Source: Rhodobium gokarnense
GTDB taxonomy: Bacteria; Pseudomonadota; Alphaproteobacteria; Rhizobiales; Rhodobiaceae
DNA length: 64,000 bases
Assembly (NCBI RefSeq): GCF_025961475.1
Contig: NZ_JAOQNS010000004.1
Coordinates: 248,001 to 312,000, forward strand
Direction of reading: 5' to 3'
Below the pieces are notes generated by a model. That model was given only the letters and a program-made list of their open reading frames with translations, searched no databases and was not told the origin of the DNA. The translations under genes and the position numbers were made by a program. Positions 6,778 to 42,266 of this stretch are shown here, piece after piece (the first letter of the stretch is position 1; each line of letters starts with the position of its first letter).

Positions 6778-7839
6778 TCAGGCGACGGCCTGGCGGTATT
6801 CGCCGACCTCCGGGTCGGTCTCGCACAGCACCTTGTTGCGGCCGGTGCGCTTGGCGGCATACATGCACTGGTCGGTGCGCTCGATGAAGTCGCCGACGCC
6901 TTCGCTCGGATGGTAGAGCGCGACGCCGATCGAAATCGTGATGCGGCCGAGATGCTCGCCCGTGGAGCGCTTGATCAGTTCCTTCGACATCACCGACTTG
7001 CGGATGTGCTCGGCCACGGTGACGGCCTGGCGCAGATGGGTGCGCGGCAGGATCACGGCAAATTCCTCGCCGCCATAGCGGCAGGGGATGTCCTGACCCT
7101 TGACGTTCTGCTTCACCGCGAGCGCGACGAGGCGCAGCACCTGGTCGCCGGTCTGGTGGCCGTAGGTGTCGTTGAAGCGCTTGAAATGGTCGATGTCGGT
7201 CATCAGGAGCGCAAGCGGCTCGCCGGTCTCGTCGGCCTTGGCGAGCGCGCGGTCGATCGACTGGTCGAAATGCTTGCGGTTGGCGAGCGTCGTCAACTCG
7301 TCCGTCAGCGACTCAAAGCGGATCACCTCAAGGTTCGACTGCAGCTCGGTGATCTGGCGCTGGGATTCTTCGAGCTGGGTGCGGAGGTTTTTGTTGATAC
7401 CGCTGTTTTCCTCGTTCGCGGAGATCAGGTCCTTGACGATCTCGCGGATGCGGGACAGGTCGGTGGTGTTGGAGAGCTTTTGGTTGGCGCCGTTGAGGGA
7501 GCTCTCATAGGCCGTCGATTCCGCAAGCGAGCATTCGATCATGCTGATCACCTGGGAAATCTCTTCCGACACCTGGCTGCCGACGTCCTCGATCTGCTCG
7601 CCGATGCGGCGGGGCGACAAGTATTCGGCATAGATGTTGTCGATGTCGGTCGCGGTGATGCGGCCGCGGTCGCGCAGGATATCGTTGATGGCCTTGTTGA
7701 GGCCGATGTTGAACCCTGCAGAATAAGTGTACCAGAACTCATAGTTACGGGGAAAAGCCGACACCTGGTTGCGCTTGATCAGACTAAGCGCGTTTTCACC
7801 GTAAGAAATCGTTCTTTCAAAATCGTCTTGACTGGTCAT
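6778..7839 (-). CDS. Diguanylate cyclase (GGDEF domain)
   Basis: This protein probably makes the second messenger cyclic di-GMP from two GTP. The C-terminal ~170 residues form a GGDEF domain: LTDELTTLANRKHFD at its start, the DIDHFKRFNDTYGH metal/GTP segment and the active-site GGEEF at residues 256-260. The N-terminal ~170 residues are a soluble, partly coiled-coil region with FPRNYEFWYTYSAGFN, seen in many alphaproteobacterial cyclases and probably sensory or dimerising. No membrane helix is evident. The inhibitory I-site position reads KGQD instead of RxxD, so product feedback may be weak. It is a single gene convergent with tenA. Confidence 0.92.
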   Translation of the reverse strand: MTSQDDFERTISYGENALSLIKRNQVSAFPRNYEFWYTYSAGFNIGLNKAINDILRDRGRITATDIDNIYAEYLSPRRIGEQIEDVGSQVSEEISQVISMIECSLAESTAYESSLNGANQKLSNTTDLSRIREIVKDLISANEENSGINKNLRTQLEESQRQITELQSNLEVIRFESLTDELTTLANRKHFDQSIDRALAKADETGEPLALLMTDIDHFKRFNDTYGHQTGDQVLRLVALAVKQNVKGQDIPCRYGGEEFAVILPRTHLRQAVTVAEHIRKSVMSKELIKRSTGEHLGRITISIGVALYHPSEGVGDFIERTDQCMYAAKRTGRNKVLCETDPEVGEYRQAVA

Positions 7840-7958
7840 AGTCCTCCCCCGGCGGCACGCCTTGCGGCCGCACCGCTTCCGAACACAATCTCGGAATTAG
7901 GCGTTAATGAGCATGGTCGGGAGCGGTTAAGGCCGCGTTAAATCGACCGTAGAAAACC

Positions 7959-9485
<1,527 letters not shown>

Positions 9486-9773
9486 TGAATGCTGGAGATT
9501 GCCCGGAACATAGCGTGGACGGGCGGCCTGTCAATCGTGCTCACAGGGTTCGTGTCGTTTCTTTCCGTGTTGGTTACCAGTCGAATGCAGTTTTGTCACC
9601 CGTCGCGGCAAACAGTTTTCGCCGCGCCAGGCGCGTCCCCGGGCACAAATCCTATTCCGGCAAAGGGTGCGCCGCCAAAGGCGCGAACCATAGGGCACAA
9701 ATCGACGCAGATATCACCGCATCGCAAAGGATGCCGGACGTAGTCGATCGGGCGCGGTCCCTGCCTGCCGGCT

Positions 9774-10208
9774 TCAGTTGCTCGCCGGCTGAAACATGTA
9801 GGTGCCGTCCTCGTTGAAGAACGCCTCGTAGGTGGTGTCGTTGGCATCGCCTGCGCCGACCTCCACGAAGAGCGTCAGGCCGAACTGATCGATCTCGAAA
9901 TTATAGCCGGTGAGCTTGAGCTTGCGGTCGTGGATCTCGGTCAGCTCGATCGTCGAGACGACCGCATCGGCGGAAACCTTCTGGATGAAGAAGCGGATGA
10001 CGTCGGGCTCCGCCTCGCGCCGAATGATCGCGCGGTAGTGGCCCTCGGCATCATCCTTCTTCCACTCGCCGAAAATGCGCATATGGGTGATCGCCGGGTC
10101 GATGCCGGCGATCGCGTCGGAGACCTCGTCGGCGGATGCGGGCACCGACCAGAGGATGGCGGCAAGGGCGGCGCCGGCGACAATATTCGTGATGCGGGTG
10201 GCGGTCAT
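9774..10208 (-). CDS. Hypothetical exported protein
   Basis: A 144-residue protein with a clear N-terminal signal peptide: a short basic start, a hydrophobic core of ~15 residues (IVAGAALAAILWSV) and a likely signal peptidase I site after PASA. The mature ~117 residues are mixed polar and hydrophobic without cysteines and look like a small periplasmic beta-rich domain. I do not recognise the family. It stands alone between the helicase promoter side and the sulfotransferase genes, 138 bp from the end of the latter, all on the minus strand. Codon use resembles that of the neighbours. Confidence 0.75.
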   Translation of the reverse strand: MTATRITNIVAGAALAAILWSVPASADEVSDAIAGIDPAITHMRIFGEWKKDDAEGHYRAIIRREAEPDVIRFFIQKVSADAVVSTIELTEIHDRKLKLTGYNFEIDQFGLTLFVEVGAGDANDTTYEAFFNEDGTYMFQPASN

Positions 10209-10346: not shown

Positions 10347-11111
10347 TCAGCCGGCGGCGTTCAGTTGCTTCAGCGCTGCCGGCAGGTCGGCCGCATCGGC
10401 GTAAAGGTGTTCGAAATCGGCCGGGTAGCGGTCCCGGACCATCCGCACCAGGGCGGGATCGGCATAGTAGTCGACGAGGTCGTCGCGGCCCTGGCGCTTG
10501 ACGTGGCGGGTCTGCAGCGGGCCGATCTCAAAGCCGATCTCGTCGCGCAGCCGTTGCTGCAGCTTCGGCCAGTCGTCCGGGTCCTCGCAGCGGCCGGTGA
10601 ATGCGGGCAGGTAGCGGCCGCGATGGGAGAGGATGTCCATCTGGCCGCGGAAATGGTTGTCGGCCCTGTCGTCGCCGATCTCGGCGACCTTTTCCACGAA
10701 GGCGGCAAAGTCCATGCCGAGGGAAAAGCCGAGCCGGGCAAAGCTCGGCTGGATCTCGTCCTTGATGCGGATCTTGTTGTTGTAGCAGCTCACCACCCGG
10801 TCGAACGGGTTGCGGACATAGGTGAACATGAAGCAGTCCGCATGGCGCGCAACGATGCTGTCCGCGCCGAGAAGGTCGGCGCCCTGGGAGCGGCCGTCGA
10901 GCCAGAAGAGGTCGTTGTTGGGTCCGATACCGTCGCTGCGGCGCTGACGCTTCCAGTCGAGATGTTCGGCAAGGGTGTATTTGATTGAGGAATTGGCGGC
11001 CTTCGGCACCCGGGCATAGACCAGCTTCCTTTCCGGCAGGACGATGAAGTGCCGTTCGCGGATCGGCGTCAGAAGGAGCCGGATGGAGCGGGAAAGGGTG
11101 TTGAACAGCAT
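10347..11111 (-). CDS. Sulfotransferase family 2 domain protein (first of tandem pair)
   Basis: A 254-residue protein resembling the sulfotransferase family 2 fold of carbohydrate sulfotransferases, which transfer sulfate from PAPS to sugars. The PAPS 5'-phosphosulfate loop is ARVPKAANSSIK (near residue 34). The 3'-phosphate motif is TYVRNPFDRVVSCYNNKI (near 97). No signal peptide is evident, so it is probably cytosolic or membrane-associated, acting on a precursor before export. It lies 31 bp downstream of a related gene, so the two look like an operon born of duplication. The substrate is unknown; no PAPS-synthesis or glycosyltransferase genes are adjacent. Confidence 0.82.
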   Translation of the reverse strand: MLFNTLSRSIRLLLTPIRERHFIVLPERKLVYARVPKAANSSIKYTLAEHLDWKRQRRSDGIGPNNDLFWLDGRSQGADLLGADSIVARHADCFMFTYVRNPFDRVVSCYNNKIRIKDEIQPSFARLGFSLGMDFAAFVEKVAEIGDDRADNHFRGQMDILSHRGRYLPAFTGRCEDPDDWPKLQQRLRDEIGFEIGPLQTRHVKRQGRDDLVDYYADPALVRMVRDRYPADFEHLYADAADLPAALKQLNAAG

Positions 11112-11142
11112 GTCAGTCCTTGGCTAAGGGCCGGTCCCGTCG

Positions 11143-11880
11143 TCAGGCGCTGCCCGGCGCATCGGCATCGGGATAGAACAGGCGGAAGTCGTCGGCATAG
11201 CGCTGGCGCACCAGGGCGACCGTTTCGATCGACGTGTAGTAGCCGGCAAGGTCGTCGGCGCCGCCGCGCCGGTAGTTGCGTTTTTCCAGCCGGCCGAGGC
11301 GGATGCCGCAATGGTCGAAAAGCGCGGCATCGAGGTCGTGCCAGTCGTCGGCAAGATTTTCGAAGCGCCCGATGAAGCCCGGCACGATATCGCCGTCATG
11401 GGTCAGCATTGCGGCCTGGGACTGGAAATGGATGTCGGCGTGGCCGTCGTCGATGGTCGCGACCTTTTGCGCGAAGGCATCAAAGGACATGTCCTTGTCG
11501 AAATCGAGGCGGGCAAAACTCGCCGGCAGCTCTTTCGAGACGACGATCTTGTTGTTGTAGCAGCTCACCAGCCGGTCGAACGGATTGCGGGTGAAGGTGA
11601 AGATGAAATAGCCGGACAGCGTGGCGGCCTCGGCCGGCGTCACCATCGCCGTGCGGCCATCCGTGCATTCGGCCCAGAACTGGTCGCGCGTCGGCTTCAC
11701 CGGCCCGTTCGGGTCGTGGGCGACATGGCGGGCGAGCGCTGCCTTGATCGACGAATTTGCGGCCTTGGGCACCCGGCCGAAGGCGATCTTCAGCTCCGGG
11801 ATGACGACGAAATGCTCCGCCTTGGCGGCCGGCGGCGGGCCGCGGAAGCGTTCGCGCAGATTGCCGAAAAGGGATGCCAA
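11143..11880 (-). CDS. Sulfotransferase family 2 domain protein (second of tandem pair)
   Basis: A paralogue of the neighbouring sulfotransferase, with matching PAPS motifs GRVPKAANSSIKAAL and TFTRNPFDRLVSCYNNKI and similar spacing to the C-terminus. I place the start at a TTG (11880) because it has GGAG eight bases upstream and gives the same distance to the 5'-PSB loop as in the paralogue, for a 245-residue product. An ATG 42 bp further upstream would add 14 residues but has no RBS. It is the promoter-proximal gene of the pair. Sequence outside the motifs has diverged considerably, so acceptors may differ. Confidence 0.8.
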   Translation of the reverse strand: MASLFGNLRERFRGPPPAAKAEHFVVIPELKIAFGRVPKAANSSIKAALARHVAHDPNGPVKPTRDQFWAECTDGRTAMVTPAEAATLSGYFIFTFTRNPFDRLVSCYNNKIVVSKELPASFARLDFDKDMSFDAFAQKVATIDDGHADIHFQSQAAMLTHDGDIVPGFIGRFENLADDWHDLDAALFDHCGIRLGRLEKRNYRRGGADDLAGYYTSIETVALVRQRYADDFRLFYPDADAPGSA

Positions 11881-11994
11881 GGACGTCGCTCCGGGTAGGG
11901 CGGCGCAAGGCGCGCCGGACATTGCCGCGAGGGGCGCCGCCGGTTTAGCCGAAACGGGGAAAAAGCGAAAGCGCCGTGACGGGCGCCGCCGACG

Positions 11995-14082
11995 TCAGAT
12001 ATCGAGGTCGGTGGCGAATTCGGCGTTGTCCTGGATGAAGCGGAACCGGGCCTCGGGCTTGGTGCCCATCAGCCGGTCGACCGTCGTTCGCGTCAGGCCG
12101 TCGTCGTCTTCGACGATGTCGACGCGCAGGACCGTGCGCTTGTCGGGCGCCATGGTGGTTTCCTTGAGCTGCGCCGGCAGCATCTCGCCGAGGCCCTTGA
12201 AGCGGCCGATATCGACCTTGCCGCGGCCGTTGAACTCCTTGGCGAGCAGTTCGTCCTTGTGGGCGTCGTCGCGGGCATAGAGCGTCTTGCCGCCCTGGGA
12301 CAGGCGGTAGAGCGGCGGCACGGCCAGATAGAGATGGCCCTCGCGGATGAGGTCCGTCATCTCGCGGTAGAAGAAGGTGATCAGCAGCGAGGCGATATGG
12401 GCGCCGTCGACGTCGGCGTCCGTCATGATGATGACCTTCTCGTAGCGCAGGTCGCTCTCGCGGTACTGGCCCCTGGTGCCGCAGCCGAGCGCCTGGACGA
12501 GGTCGGCGAGCTGCTGGTTCTGGGCGAGCTTTTCGCGCCCGGCGCTGGCGACGTTGAGGATCTTGCCGCGCAGGGGGAGGACGGCCTGGGTGGCGCGATT
12601 GCGCGCCTGCTTGGCCGAGCCGCCGGCCGAATCGCCCTCCACGATGAAGATCTCGCTGCCGGCGGCCTGGCCGCTGGAGCAGTCGGCGAGCTTGCCCGGA
12701 AGCCGCAGCTTGCGCACCGCGGACTTGCGGTTGACTTCCTTTTCCTGGCGCCGCTTCAGCCGCTCCTCGGCCCGGTCGACGACCCATTCCAGCAGCCGGT
12801 TGGCCTGGTTGGGCGATGCGGCGAGCCAGTGGTCGAAGGCGTCGCGGACGGCGTTTTCGACGATCCGGCTCGCTTCCGTCGTCGCCAGCCTGTCCTTGGT
12901 CTGGCCGACGAATTCCGGCTCGCGGATGAAGACGGAAAGCATGGCGCCGGCAGAGGTCAGCACGTCATCGCCGGTGATGATGCCGCCCTTCTTGTTGCCG
13001 ACCAGTTCGGCATAGGACCTCAGCCCCTTCAGGAGGGCGTTGCGGAGGCCGGTCTCGTGGGTGCCGCCCTCCGGCGTCGGGATGGTGTTGCAATAGGAGC
13101 GGGTGAAGCCGTCGCCGGCGAACCAGGCGGCGGCCCATTCCACCGAACCGTGGCCGCCGGGGCGGTCGGTCTTGCCGGCGAAGATGTCGTCGACGACCTT
13201 GCGCTCGCCGTTGAGGCTCTCGGCGAGAAAGTCCTTGAGGCCGCCGGGAAAATGGAAGGTGGCCGAGGCCGGCGGCGCATTGGCGCCTTCCAGCCAGTTG
13301 GCCGCGCAGGACCAGCGGATTTCCACGCCGCCGAAGAGATAGGCCTTGGAGCGGGCCATGCGGAAGAGGGTGGCCGGCTGGAACTTGCAGTTGGCGCCGA
13401 AGATCTCCGTGTCGGGCACGAAGCGCACGCGGGTGCCGCGCCGGTTCATGACCTCGCCGAGTTCCTCCAGGCCGCCGACCGGAATGCCGCGGGAAAAACA
13501 CTGGCGATAGAGCCGGCGGCCGCGGGCGACCTCGACTTCAAGCTTTTCGGACAGGGCGTTGACGACGGAGACGCCGACGCCGTGCAGGCCGCCGGAGGTC
13601 TCGTAGACCTTGGAATCGAATTTGCCGCCGGCATGGAGTGTCGTCATGATCACTTCCAGGGCCGACTTGTCGGTGAATTTGGGGTGCGGGTCGACCGGGA
13701 TGCCGCGGCCGTTGTCACTGACCGTCAGCGCCCCTTCGGCGTCGAGTTCGACCTCGATCCAGCTCGCATGGCCAGCGACCGCCTCGTCCATGGAGTTGTC
13801 GATGACCTCGGCAAAGAGGTGGTGCATGGCCTTGGAATCGGTGCCGCCGATATACATGCCCGGTCGCCGGCGCACCGGCTCAAGGCCTTCCAGGACCTCA
13901 ATGTCGGCGGCGGAATAGCCGGTCTCGCCGCTGTCGCCCGTGCTCCTTGCGGGGGTGCGCGCGGCCGGCCGCGACGGCGCGGGGCGGTCCGCAGCGGCTT
14001 TGCGCTTTGCCGGACGGTTCTGCGCCTTCAGGTCGGCGACGCTCTCCTCGAGCTTGGCAAAAAGGTCTTCGGATTTGGCCAT
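11995..14082 (-). CDS. parE: DNA topoisomerase IV subunit B (ParE)
   Basis: ParE is the ATPase subunit of topoisomerase IV, which decatenates daughter chromosomes with ParC. The GHKL ATPase domain shows EVIDNSMDEAVAG, DNGRGIPVD and TSGGLHGVGVSVVNALS. The TOPRIM domain has EIFIVEGDSAGGSA (about residue 474) and IIMTDADVDGAH (about 550). The product ends in AEFATDLDI, a typical GyrB/ParE end. Length and motifs fit ParE rather than the longer GyrB. The preferred ATG (14082; MAKSEDLFAKLEE) gives 695 residues and follows GGGAAGA; an ATG 69 bp upstream lacks an RBS. It is monocistronic, minus strand; parC is not in the window. Confidence 0.93.
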   Translation of the reverse strand: MAKSEDLFAKLEESVADLKAQNRPAKRKAAADRPAPSRPAARTPARSTGDSGETGYSAADIEVLEGLEPVRRRPGMYIGGTDSKAMHHLFAEVIDNSMDEAVAGHASWIEVELDAEGALTVSDNGRGIPVDPHPKFTDKSALEVIMTTLHAGGKFDSKVYETSGGLHGVGVSVVNALSEKLEVEVARGRRLYRQCFSRGIPVGGLEELGEVMNRRGTRVRFVPDTEIFGANCKFQPATLFRMARSKAYLFGGVEIRWSCAANWLEGANAPPASATFHFPGGLKDFLAESLNGERKVVDDIFAGKTDRPGGHGSVEWAAAWFAGDGFTRSYCNTIPTPEGGTHETGLRNALLKGLRSYAELVGNKKGGIITGDDVLTSAGAMLSVFIREPEFVGQTKDRLATTEASRIVENAVRDAFDHWLAASPNQANRLLEWVVDRAEERLKRRQEKEVNRKSAVRKLRLPGKLADCSSGQAAGSEIFIVEGDSAGGSAKQARNRATQAVLPLRGKILNVASAGREKLAQNQQLADLVQALGCGTRGQYRESDLRYEKVIIMTDADVDGAHIASLLITFFYREMTDLIREGHLYLAVPPLYRLSQGGKTLYARDDAHKDELLAKEFNGRGKVDIGRFKGLGEMLPAQLKETTMAPDKRTVLRVDIVEDDDGLTRTTVDRLMGTKPEARFRFIQDNAEFATDLDI

Positions 14083-14312
14083 TTCCAGCGGGTCTTCCCA
14101 GGCGTTAAAGGGGGATTTCGCAGGCAAGCGAATCGGTTCGCATTCTGGCATGACGAAAAAGTAAAGGCGAGATCGGCGTTCGCGGCTTGTTCCATCACAA
14201 GTCCGCTAGCGGCGCAGAAGATGTCGGGCGCTGGCCAACGGCCATGGAAAATGACTGGCAAAACTGGTTTCTTGGGCAGCGATCCAATGCAATCGCACCG
14301 ATGGAGGTTTTC

Positions 14313-38733: not shown

Positions 38734-39567
38734 TTGGCCGACGCGATCGTTGAAAGCGCCAGGAATCATGCGACGCGCCTGTTCCAGAGCGGCGTCGAAA
38801 GGCTGGCGCCGCTCGCCGAAAAGCGTGCCGTCATCGGCGACAAGGTGGGCGCCAAGGTGGGCGCACTGGCCGGCAGGATCGGTGCGCTGGCCCCCGCACG
38901 CGCCGAGCGCGAGCAATATATCGTCGAATTCGACGGGGTGACGAAGACCTATCGGACCAAGAAGGGCACCAAGACGATCCTTCGCGACGCCGACTTCAAG
39001 GTCAAGCGGGGGCGCAGCCTCGCCATCCTCGGCAAGAACGGTACCGGCAAGTCGACGCTGCTGCGCCTGCTCGCCGGCGTCGAACATCCGACGGAGGGCT
39101 CGATCCGGCGCGGCGGCCGGGTGTCGTGGCCGCTCGGCTTCGGCGGCGGCTTCGCGAGCGACATCTCGGCGCGGGAAAACTGCATCTTCATCAGCCGCAT
39201 CTACAACGCCGATCCGCAGGAAGTGATCACGTTCGTCGAGGATTTCGCCGAGCTCGGCAATTATTTCGACATGCCGGTGAAGACCTATTCGTCGGGCATG
39301 AAGGCGCGGCTCGCCTTCGGCATGAGCATGGCGATCGAGTTCGACTGCTACCTGATCGACGAGCTCACCGCGGTCGGCGACAAGCGCTTCCGGGACAAAT
39401 GCCATGCGGAGTTTTCCGCCCGGCGCGAGACGGCCGACGTCATCATGATTTCGCACTCCGTACAGACGATCATATCCTACTGCGATACCGCGGCGGTCTT
39501 GAACAACGGCCGGCTGGAGTTCTATGACGATCTCCACGAGGCGATCGAAATCTACAAGGCCCTTTAG
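38734..39567 (+). CDS. Polysaccharide export ABC transporter ATP-binding protein (KpsT-like)
   Basis: A 277-residue ABC ATPase of the group that powers capsule or O-antigen export. Walker A is GKNGTGKST; the signature region is YSSGMKARLAFGMSMAIEF, with the short 'SSGM' form typical of KpsT/CtrD. Walker B is CYLIDELTAVGD. It carries a ~60-residue Ala-rich helical N-terminal extension ahead of the ABC domain (which starts near YIVEFDGVTKTY). The start is TTG with AAGGGGG just upstream. It is 3 bp from the kpsE-like gene. The permease KpsM is not in this window. Confidence 0.88.
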   Translation: MADAIVESARNHATRLFQSGVERLAPLAEKRAVIGDKVGAKVGALAGRIGALAPARAEREQYIVEFDGVTKTYRTKKGTKTILRDADFKVKRGRSLAILGKNGTGKSTLLRLLAGVEHPTEGSIRRGGRVSWPLGFGGGFASDISARENCIFISRIYNADPQEVITFVEDFAELGNYFDMPVKTYSSGMKARLAFGMSMAIEFDCYLIDELTAVGDKRFRDKCHAEFSARRETADVIMISHSVQTIISYCDTAAVLNNGRLEFYDDLHEAIEIYKAL

Positions 39568-39570
39568 CTC

Positions 39571-40818
39571 ATGCTGGAAATCCCCAATTCTGCCGACAGG
39601 CTGAAACGGCTGGCACTGGACCCTTCGGTCTTCACCACCGAGGCCAAGAAGAAAGACGACGCGCAGATGAAGCCGGAACGCAAGCGCTCCGGCCGCAAGA
39701 TCCAGCGCAAGAAAAAGCCGCGCCTTTCGGTCAGCAAGTCGCTGGCGCTGTTCGTGCTCGTGCCGGGGCTGCTCGCCGCGATCTATTTCTTCCTCATCGC
39801 CTCCGATCAGTATGCGGCCGAGGCCCGGTTCGCGATCCGCAGCGCCGAATCCGGCGGCGGCACGGACGTCATCGGCGGCCTGCTCGCCGGCGTCGGCAGC
39901 ACCTCGTCGACGGCATCGGACGCCTATATCGTCACGGAGTACATCTATTCGCGCGAACTCGTCGACGAGCTCGACGAGGCAATCAACCTGCGCCAGATCT
40001 ACAATCGGGACGAGGCCGACTTCATTGCCCGGGCCGGCGCCGACCGGTCCGTGGAGTCCTTCATGGACTACTGGAAGAGCATGGTCAGCGTCTATTTCGA
40101 TTCGACCGAAGGGATCATCCTTCTGGAAGTGCGGGCGTTTACGCCGGCCGATGCCAAGCTGGTCGCCGAGAATGTGATTGCCCGCAGCGAACGGCTGATC
40201 AACGAGCTCTCCCGGAAAATGCGCGATGACGCGGTCAACGAGGCTCGCTCCGAAGTGGCGCGGGCCGAAAACCGGCTGCGCCTGGCGCGCGTCGCGATTT
40301 CCCGTTTCCGCGAGGTGAGCAAGATCATCGATCCGTCGCTCACGGCCAAGACCGAGCACGCCATCGTTTCCTCGCTGGAGGGCCAACTGGCCAAGCGGGA
40401 AACGGAATTGAGCACGGCCCTGATGTCGATGGGCGATACGGCGCCGCGCGTCATCCATATGCGGACCCAGATCGAGGCGTTGAAGAAGCAGATTCTCGAC
40501 GAACGGACGAAGCTGGCGCTTCGCGATTCGACGGGCGGTGAGTCGCTGAACGAGAACCTGAAGCGCTACGAGGAACTGGTCACGGAGCAGGAGTTCGCCC
40601 AGAAGGCCTATGTGTCGACCCTGGCATCGCTGGAGCGTGCGCGAATCGAGGCCGACCGGCAGCAGCGCTATCTGGCGGTGTTCGTCAATCCGCGGCTGCC
40701 GCAGGACGCGCTCTATCCGGAGCGCCTGCGCTGGACGCTGATCATTTTCGGCGGCGCCTTCCTGATCTGGGGTGTCGGCTCGCTGGCGATCGCGAGTATC
40801 CGCGATCACATGATTTAA
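39571..40818 (+). CDS. Capsule polysaccharide export inner-membrane protein (KpsE-like)
   Basis: A 415-residue polysaccharide co-polymerase-type protein that spans the periplasm between the export ABC transporter and the outer-membrane channel. It has a basic cytosolic N-terminus, a first membrane helix at about residues 53-75 (LALFVLVPGLLAAIYFFLI), a long periplasmic coiled coil (about 220-360) and a second helix near the C-terminus (LIIFGGAFLIWGVGSLAIA). This matches KpsE/CtrB topology. It starts 3 bp after the KpsT-like gene. Confidence 0.88.
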   Translation: MLEIPNSADRLKRLALDPSVFTTEAKKKDDAQMKPERKRSGRKIQRKKKPRLSVSKSLALFVLVPGLLAAIYFFLIASDQYAAEARFAIRSAESGGGTDVIGGLLAGVGSTSSTASDAYIVTEYIYSRELVDELDEAINLRQIYNRDEADFIARAGADRSVESFMDYWKSMVSVYFDSTEGIILLEVRAFTPADAKLVAENVIARSERLINELSRKMRDDAVNEARSEVARAENRLRLARVAISRFREVSKIIDPSLTAKTEHAIVSSLEGQLAKRETELSTALMSMGDTAPRVIHMRTQIEALKKQILDERTKLALRDSTGGESLNENLKRYEELVTEQEFAQKAYVSTLASLERARIEADRQQRYLAVFVNPRLPQDALYPERLRWTLIIFGGAFLIWGVGSLAIASIRDHMI

Positions 40819-41135
40819 CCGCCCGCCGTCCGGCGTTTCTGGACAGGCGGTTCATATGGCATTTACCTTTTCCCTTCACCGCATGCTAACCAGGATGCGG
40901 CGACACTGGGTACGGGGACCATGGCTGGCGCATCGCGTTTTTTTAAAAAAATGCCTTGCGACTATCCGAAAATGACCGTCTCTTCCGACTTGCGGACGCG
41001 GCGGCAAAGGGGACTGGCGCAATGGTGTGGCGCCACTGCAACGGGGATCTCGGAAACCCGTCCGACTAATTTCGCGGATATGGCGGATGCGCCATGACGA
41101 TGGTAAGCAACTGCGTGCAATAACGACATAAACCC
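40819..41135 (+). promoter_or_regulatory. Intergenic region upstream of the OPX gene, with an A7/T7 palindrome
   Basis: This 317-bp gap holds no gene that I can support. It is AT-richer than its surroundings and contains the palindrome GCG-T7-A7-TGC (40935-40954; one mismatched pair), a likely site of DNA bending or regulator binding. The downstream OPX gene probably has its own promoter here. No clear terminator for the KpsE-like gene is visible; only an imperfect CCGCC...GGCGG hairpin follows its stop. Confidence 0.4.
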
Positions 41136-42266
41136 ATGCATCACAAACTCCTTTTCGCGCTTGCCATTGTCGGATTTCTGGGCGGCTGTTCGGGGCTTCC
41201 GAGCGAAGGTCCGTCGGCGATGGATATCAGCGCGGAAGACATCGAGTCGCTGCCGCAGACGGAATACATTTTCGTCACCATCGACGCCAACAGCGCGAAC
41301 GTGGCCGGCCAGTACCGGCTGACGGAATTCTCCCGCAATTTCAAGGTCGGCGCGCCGGGTAACGGCCAGCGCCTCGGCGTCGGCGACCGCATCTCCGTGG
41401 CAATCTGGGAAGCGGGCGAGGACGGCCTGTTCTCCACGGAGAACGGCAAGAAGACGACCGTCGATGCCATCGTGGACGAGAACGGCATGATCTTCATTCC
41501 CTATGCCGGACGGATGCGGGTGGCGGGGCGGACCGTGGAGACGGTGCGCCAGAACATCGAGGCCAACCTCGTCGACAAGGCGATCCAGCCGCAGGTGCTG
41601 GTGTACGTGAAGGGGAATGTCAGCAACAGCGCGGTGATCGTCGGCGACATCTCCAAGCCGGGCCGCTATCCGATCTCGCTGCGCGGCACGCGGATTCTCG
41701 ATCTGATCGCCGGCGCGGGCGGCTCGAAATACCCGACCTACGAGACGGTGGTGACGCTGAAGCGCAAGGATCGCACCGCGACCACCGTGCTTGAGAACCT
41801 TTTCGACTATCCGGGCAACAACATCTTCCTGTCGCCGAACGACAATATCCTCCTGGCCCACGCACCGCGCACCTTCACGGCGTTCGGCGCGGTCGAGACC
41901 ACCAAGGAGTATCCGTTCGAATCGCGGACCATCACGCTGGCCGAGGCTCTGGCCCGGGCCGGCGGCCTCGACGACAAGCGGGCCGACGCCGGCGGCGTGT
42001 TCCTGTTCCGCTTCGAGGACGTGGAAGTGGCGCGGCAGCTCAGCGACAAGGTCGATGAGCAGGCCGTTTCCGGCTACAAGGTGCCCGTCGTCTACCGGCT
42101 CAACTTCAAGGATCCGAAGGCCTTCTTCTACGCCCGGTATTTCGAGTTGCGCGACAAGGACATCCTCTATGTCGCCAACCATCCGACGGCAGAATTCGGC
42201 AAGTTCCTGAACATCATCCAGCCCGGTATTTCCTCGGCGCGCTCGGTTGACCTGATCACCCGCTAG
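41136..42266 (+). CDS. Polysaccharide export outer-membrane protein (OPX, Wza/KpsD family)
   Basis: A 376-residue outer-membrane polysaccharide export lipoprotein, forming the exit channel. The signal peptide ends in the lipobox FLGGC (Cys18), so it is lipid-anchored. A poly-export domain begins near GQRLGVGDRISVAIWEAGE, followed by SLBB domains (VIVGDISKPGRYPISLRGTR; AFGAVETTKEYPFESRTITL). Together with the upstream KpsT- and KpsE-like genes it forms an export module, though set apart by 317 bp. A cloverleaf-like repeat follows its stop and may serve as its terminator. Confidence 0.9.
   Translation: MHHKLLFALAIVGFLGGCSGLPSEGPSAMDISAEDIESLPQTEYIFVTIDANSANVAGQYRLTEFSRNFKVGAPGNGQRLGVGDRISVAIWEAGEDGLFSTENGKKTTVDAIVDENGMIFIPYAGRMRVAGRTVETVRQNIEANLVDKAIQPQVLVYVKGNVSNSAVIVGDISKPGRYPISLRGTRILDLIAGAGGSKYPTYETVVTLKRKDRTATTVLENLFDYPGNNIFLSPNDNILLAHAPRTFTAFGAVETTKEYPFESRTITLAEALARAGGLDDKRADAGGVFLFRFEDVEVARQLSDKVDEQAVSGYKVPVVYRLNFKDPKAFFYARYFELRDKDILYVANHPTAEFGKFLNIIQPGISSARSVDLITR

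Follow-up and report, generated by a model that had tools for sequence, protein, structure and literature searches.

Directly downstream of parE, Rhodobium gokarnense carries two adjacent genes, here called ST1 and ST2, that probably encode two active, diverged PAPS-dependent sulfotransferases of the PF03567 type, probably with sugar acceptors and with a different position or acceptor for each protein. This explanation draws on homology, intact residues of the PAPS site, the modelled fold of ST1, the PAPS genes of the host and the presence of both genes, kept under purifying selection, in a second species. From these we infer catalysis, the sugar acceptor and the division of labour between ST1 and ST2. 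The enzymes would take sulfate from PAPS and attach it to the hydroxyl of a sugar in a surface glycan or glycolipid, and each would act at its own position or on its own acceptor.

The ST1/ST2 Pair and Its Locus

The window analysed is a stretch of 64,000 nucleotides of contig NZ_JAOQNS010000004.1 (positions 248001-312000). The features around the pair are the following.

6778-7839, minus strand: GGDEF (diguanylate cyclase-type) protein, downstream synteny anchor
7959-9485, minus strand: DEAD-box helicase, downstream synteny anchor
9774-10208, minus strand: 144-aa protein with a signal-peptide-like start (judged by eye)
10347-11111, minus strand: ST1, Sulfotransfer_2 (PF03567) protein of 254 aa, from open reading frame and profile match; motif residues Lys37 (in RVPKAANSSIK), P102xxR105xxS108, His153 and Gln157
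11143-11922, minus strand: ST2, Sulfotransfer_2 protein of 259 aa, from open reading frame and profile match; motif residues, as aligned with ST1, Lys53, P114xxR117xxS120, His165 and Gln169
11970-11987, minus strand: terminator-like hairpin with T-rich tail, immediately 3' of parE
11995-14151, minus strand: parE (topoisomerase IV subunit B type), upstream neighbour and synteny anchor

An earlier note on this DNA had described two adjacent minus-strand genes with common motifs at matching positions, between a hypothetical protein and parE. This description holds: the two open reading frames share the minus strand with 31 bp between them, RVPKAANSSIK is identical in the two proteins and NPFDR[VL]VSCYNNKI is in register, the 144-aa protein has no Pfam match above cut-off, and the other neighbour is a ParE/GyrB-type subunit. 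The span given for the pair was 10347-11880, but 11880 falls within the ST2 frame, which extends to 11922; this ST2 start is that of the longest open reading frame and is putative. In a single pairwise comparison ST1 and ST2 were 43% identical (105/246, E 1e-61).

No promoter was found in a sigma-70 scan of the ST1/ST2 region. Two terminator-like hairpins were found in the region against 1.6 expected by chance, a weak signal; with such a hairpin right after parE, co-transcription of ST1 and ST2 with parE is not implied. The 144-aa secreted-looking protein is found again close to parE in several families, whether or not a sulfotransferase is there (L082, L084-L086, L183, L191 and L192).

Family Membership and Donor-Site Residues

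The sulfotransferase family proposed from the letters alone was recovered by profile search, which puts both proteins in PF03567 above its curated cut-off of 22 bits (ST1, 57.7 bits, E 2.6e-15; ST2, 85.9 bits, E 6.4e-24). The NCBIfam scan gave no match for ST1 or ST2. The two are almost certainly sulfotransferases by descent, of a kind that is uncommon yet already known, and the pair adds new members to PF03567.

In the consensus described for PF03567, the PSB lysine is accompanied by PXXRXXS, and the catalytic base is either histidine or glutamate (PMC11625862). The PSB lysine, PxxRxxS and an in-register histidine are found in all four Rhodobium proteins (the window pair and that of Rhodobium orientis), and each of the 13 motif residues examined is kept in 4/4 copies. 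PxxRxxS, the 3'-phosphate binding motif, reads PFDRVVS and PFDRLVS in the window pair. The histidine (ST1 153), a putative base by its position, is invariant in the 4/4 Rhodobium proteins and in 18/18 other relatives aligned; the PSB lysine is present in 17 of these 18, the remaining one having Arg. The PAPS-binding motifs noticed earlier correspond to site residues that are intact in both proteins.

Modelled Fold of ST1

Structure prediction had been suggested as a check, and the model obtained for ST1 has a sulfotransferase-like fold. The AlphaFold2 model was made from a 45-row alignment, deepened by 41 viral relatives, and reached a pLDDT of 83.5 and a pTM of 0.82. The ST2 model, from a 4-row alignment, is weak (pLDDT 40.8), and the fold comparison rests on ST1. 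Retinol dehydratase is itself a protein of the sulfotransferase fold, and all 50 of the 50 entries listed by VIA-align 2 for the ST1 model were sulfotransferases or retinol dehydratase, as were 41 of the 50 chains listed by Foldseek, where no match reached E <= 0.001. The best VIA-align 2 match was the heparan sulfate 6-O-sulfotransferase 5t05/5t03 (Z 9.2, rmsd 4.2, 190-192 residues aligned), a Z of 8-9 being middling by the program's own note. The small-molecule cytosolic SULTs come next at Z 8.4; since they stand within 1 unit of HS6ST, the modelled fold does not settle the acceptor. Neither ST1 nor a 5-row profile retrieved a sulfotransferase from the PDB by sequence, and the profile matched no chain below E 0.085, which we read as a short reach of the sequence searches because the structural comparison does list sulfotransferases.

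The animal members of PF03567 include CHST8-15, HS2ST, UST and HS6ST (PMC4659905). ST1 and ST2 resemble these enzymes in the PSB lysine, PxxRxxS, the histidine and the modelled fold, but they are bacterial proteins of 254-259 aa that the sequence profile does not connect to any PDB chain at an E below the value just given. Among related bacteria, sulfation of surface glycans or glycolipids is described for rhizobial LpsS, of the Stf0 family (PMC12445080), and NodH, of PF13469 (PMC11625862); these belong to other sulfotransferase families, however, and are related to ST1 and ST2 by function and not by membership.

PAPS Supply and Other Sulfotransferases of the Genome

The 5.1 Mb host genome has 10 PF03567 matches, 9 of them above cut-off, while the same search found none in 14 control genomes (0/14), in agreement with the rarity in bacteria claimed for such sulfotransferases. 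A search for PAPS-synthesis genes, also suggested earlier, located cysD and cysNC on a contig other than that of ST1 and ST2. The single APS kinase domain of the genome is fused to a CysN-type GTPase (cysNC) on contig C11, and the adjoining PAPS_reduct-domain protein is read as CysD. With cysD and cysNC, the host is predicted to make the donor PAPS.

About 2 kb separate cysNC from another PF03567 gene on C11, with an ABC-2 transporter gene in the interval. Within C11:138000-157000 (L033), cysD/cysNC are within a few kb of PF03567, ABC-2 transporter and sugar-nucleotide-type genes (the last judged by eye), and this region is a likely sulfated-glycan locus of the host genome. Five further PF03567 genes are found at C20:2898-10022 (L034), among them a direct tandem of four (7143-10022); they lie in and around a gene pair with biotin carboxylase/propionyl-CoA carboxylase and carboxyltransferase domains.

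Conservation of the Pair and Its Relatives

R. orientis, the one relative genome in the search of named genomes, carries both genes in the same order with 90% and 92% identity, the two Rhodobium species differing at 8-10% of ST1/ST2 positions. The dN/dS values of 0.33 and 0.25 for ST1 and ST2 against R. orientis (NG86) suggest that the pair is constrained by purifying selection; parE gave 0.12, and the values for the pair are about 2 to 3.5 times those of parE and the helicase. The tree did not place the ST1 and ST2 copies as sisters, and a single clade of the four Rhodobium proteins was not rejected (p 0.585 and 0.422).

A class-wide scan gave matches at E <= 1e-12 in 5/385 genomes, the window's own genome counted, and the 5-row profile matched 49/397 genomes of an order-wide sample at E <= 1e-6. 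The surroundings of the match were viewed in 30 of these 49, the other 19 being weaker matches. The plasmid search found two distant relatives, in Marinovum algicola pMaD10 and in Gloeothece. Scans of viral contigs drew a blank when the close profile or ST1 served as query. One more diverse sulfotransferase query, used in tblastn, picked up relatives in 102 viral contig stretches, of which 80 were kept (L202-L281); PK-type motifs were seen by eye in many of the 47 viral stretches read, and phage-borne sulfotransferases seem to be common.

Gene Neighbourhoods and the Acceptor

The earlier note had found it peculiar that the pair has no polysaccharide neighbours. Of the intact close relatives from other genera, nine were examined (L038, L073-L079 and L093, the last being the Marinovum plasmid protein), and only two of them, L038 and L093, have a glycosyltransferase next door; none was seen in the other 7/9, where some neighbours were scanned with Pfam and the rest judged by eye (L075 entirely so). 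The neighbours scanned include a solute-binding protein (L073), an alpha/beta hydrolase (L074), a KDPG aldolase (L076), a Na/Pi cotransporter (L077), SelR (L078), and DUF423 and fumarase C (L079). A position away from glycan genes looks like the rule in the ST1/ST2 branch, and the peculiarity was overstated: because a lonely position is ordinary among the nearest relatives, there is less reason for surprise.

The same neighbourhoods bear on the acceptor in both directions. For a sugar acceptor, two intact relatives do adjoin glycosyltransferases. One of them is the sulfotransferase of Marinovum algicola pMaD10 (AKP00181.1), 36% identical to ST2 over 83% of its length, which differs from the window genes in being on a plasmid near sialic-acid and dTDP-rhamnose genes and not beside parE. 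The human members of PF03567 are also described as acting on carbohydrates (PMC4659905). On the other hand, the acceptor could be a small molecule, a lipid or a protein, with the family name mirroring the animal members only. The 7/9 relatives with no glycosyltransferase seen next door speak for this, as do the account of the Pfam seeds as biased to glycosaminoglycan enzymes and that of the substrate-recognition regions as not conserved (PMC11625862). The best structural match of the ST1 model, a heparan sulfate 6-O-sulfotransferase, points the other way, though with the SULTs so close behind, and we consider a non-sugar acceptor doubtful, if the most serious competitor. The immediate neighbours of ST1 and ST2 give no pathway, which counts against reading them as an active pair.

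A specific glycan had been proposed as well, the polysaccharide exported by genes located further along the window.

38734-42266, plus strand: polysaccharide exporter genes
38734-39567, plus strand: ABC ATPase (ABC_tran)
39571-40818, plus strand: exporter-region gene with no Pfam match
41136-42266, plus strand: Poly_export/SLBB protein

The ABC ATPase and the Poly_export/SLBB protein are indeed present at 38.7-42.3 kb, and sulfated capsules are reported from marine bacteria (PMC11766843, PMC11641403). However, the exporter is 27 kb from ST1 and ST2, and the PF03567 gene close to cysNC and the ABC-2 transporter gene on C11 is a likelier partner for capsule sulfation; we consider sulfation of the exported polysaccharide by ST1 and ST2 unlikely. 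Still less probable is an ongoing loss of activity in ST1, ST2 or both, after the pattern of the relatives from family f41 described below. The PSB lysine is absent from all of those genes, which occupy the same gap (0/51), and the dN/dS of ST1 and ST2 is above that of parE and the helicase, but the 13 motif residues are present in every Rhodobium copy despite the divergence between the two species. Two active sulfotransferases, probably acting on sugars, remain the best explanation of the pair.

A Relative in the parE-Helicase Gap of Family f41

Besides the window's own genome and R. orientis, thirteen of the 30 order-sample genomes examined have their match located in the gap from parE to the DEAD-box helicase, and all thirteen are of family f41, possibly Stappiaceae. 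A profile of the f41 proteins matched 54 of 87 f41 genomes, 3 of the 54 only by a weaker match elsewhere, and the gene is in the parE-helicase gap in 51/87 (the 13 and 38 further loci; L039, L080-L088, L090-L092 and L101-L138). In 38/38 of the further loci the sulfotransferase gene, parE and the helicase are on one strand with the sulfotransferase gene in the middle. By genus code, the gap gene is present in g41 3/3, g142 0/3, g82 3/5, g143 1/1, g128 4/16, g109 26/45 and g89 14/14. In 35 of the 36 f41 genomes without the gene, 150-550 bp separate parE from the helicase downstream and give no sulfotransferase match at E 1e-3; in the stretch from the remaining genome (L164), no helicase was found.

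PF03567 matched 10/10 of the f41 proteins scanned, from the 51, at E <= 0.1 (best 2.6e-15), and one of them scored 34.9 bits against the cut-off of 22. Among 20 genomes of the order picked by hand from 60 parE loci (19 of other families and one congener, with the helicase within the stretch in 13/20), no sulfotransferase match was found in the parE gap (0/20). In the congener G001, the third genome of the window's family, an alpha/beta-hydrolase-like frame was seen by eye in the parE-helicase gap (L177, 4900-5950).

The f41 proteins share with ST1 and ST2 the parE-helicase gap and 24-32% identity (first 13 proteins), but they are encoded in single copy, have a near-invariant RPL(R) motif of their own, and have lost the PAPS lysine in 51/51 cases, whereas both window proteins retain it. 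In place of the lysine there is E in 17, G in 15, N in 12, H in 5 and D in 2. The histidine is retained in 4 of the 51, the first PB arginine in 18 and the PB serine in 7 (rows as aligned); the PB Pro and Gln157 are retained in 51 and the second PB Arg in 50. Other positions are near-invariant in f41 (ST1 numbering, 50 rows): R15 100%, P16 100%, L17 90%, R84 96%, N152 98% and R155 100%.

An alignment slip was set aside as the cause of the lysine loss after the 51 motif rows were checked by eye; in L138, a frame break put a spurious Q at the lysine position, where the correct frame has E. The genes are also poor candidates for decaying pseudogenes. Open frames of at least 245 aa are present in 50/51 (in one genome the gene is split into two frames), the positions conserved at 96-100% identity argue for constraint, and for every one of the 35 pairs that have an NG86 value, among 60 listed of 120 close pairs, pairwise dN/dS falls within 0.05-0.41, some dS values being saturated. 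The idea that f41 lost PAPS binding for want of PAPS synthesis was rejected because an APS kinase is present in 86/87 f41 genomes. In two of them (G042:C18 and G081:C2), the APS kinase gene has a further sulfotransferase-profile match some 2.5 kb away, and an active sulfation locus may exist there alongside the pseudo-sulfotransferase.

Taken from its residues and substitution pattern, the f41 gap protein appears to be a pseudo-sulfotransferase under purifying selection, for which the usual PAPS binding is not expected and which may be kept for another role. Its own near-invariant residues, the dN/dS values and the supported clade (99/95, 21 representatives) suggest that the donor site was probably lost once, early. 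No bacterial pseudo-sulfotransferase of this sort is described in the literature titles and abstract openings searched.

Origin of the Pair and of the f41 Gene

Position speaks for a common local origin of the Rhodobium pair and the f41 gene, and the sequence tree tests speak mildly against it. Rhodobium and f41 as one clade were weakly rejected (p 0.026 with 43 rows and 0.026 with 34 rows), as was ST2 with f41 (p 0.035), and ST1 with f41 was not (p 0.175). The union of Rhodobium, f41 and L079, an intact protein outside the parE locus that joins f41 in the tree, was not rejected either (p 0.24). The groups for these tests were chosen after the synteny had been seen, and the branches of f41 are long. 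The common position may reflect an independent insertion into the same gap or local ancestry with an escape of L079. We suggest only tentatively that an active sulfotransferase was ancestral to the gap, was kept and duplicated in Rhodobium, became a conserved pseudoenzyme in f41 and was then repeatedly lost. Under this local ancestry, the f41 gene would have lost PAPS binding once, early, would have gained the near-invariant RPL near its N-terminus, and would perhaps serve as a glycan- or partner-binding protein.

The window pair represents two sulfotransferases of glycan type, probably active and lacking an obvious pathway, in a genome predicted to make PAPS. The pseudo-sulfotransferase lineage of f41 is the more interesting of the two: in 51 genomes, one per species, a protein of a sulfotransferase family is without the usual PAPS site and yet under selection. 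An active pair and an inactive relative at one locus would offer a clean comparative system for what becomes of the sulfotransferase fold after sulfate transfer ends. If local ancestry is true, f41 would hold a bacterial pseudo-sulfotransferase family with its active living counterpart in the window.
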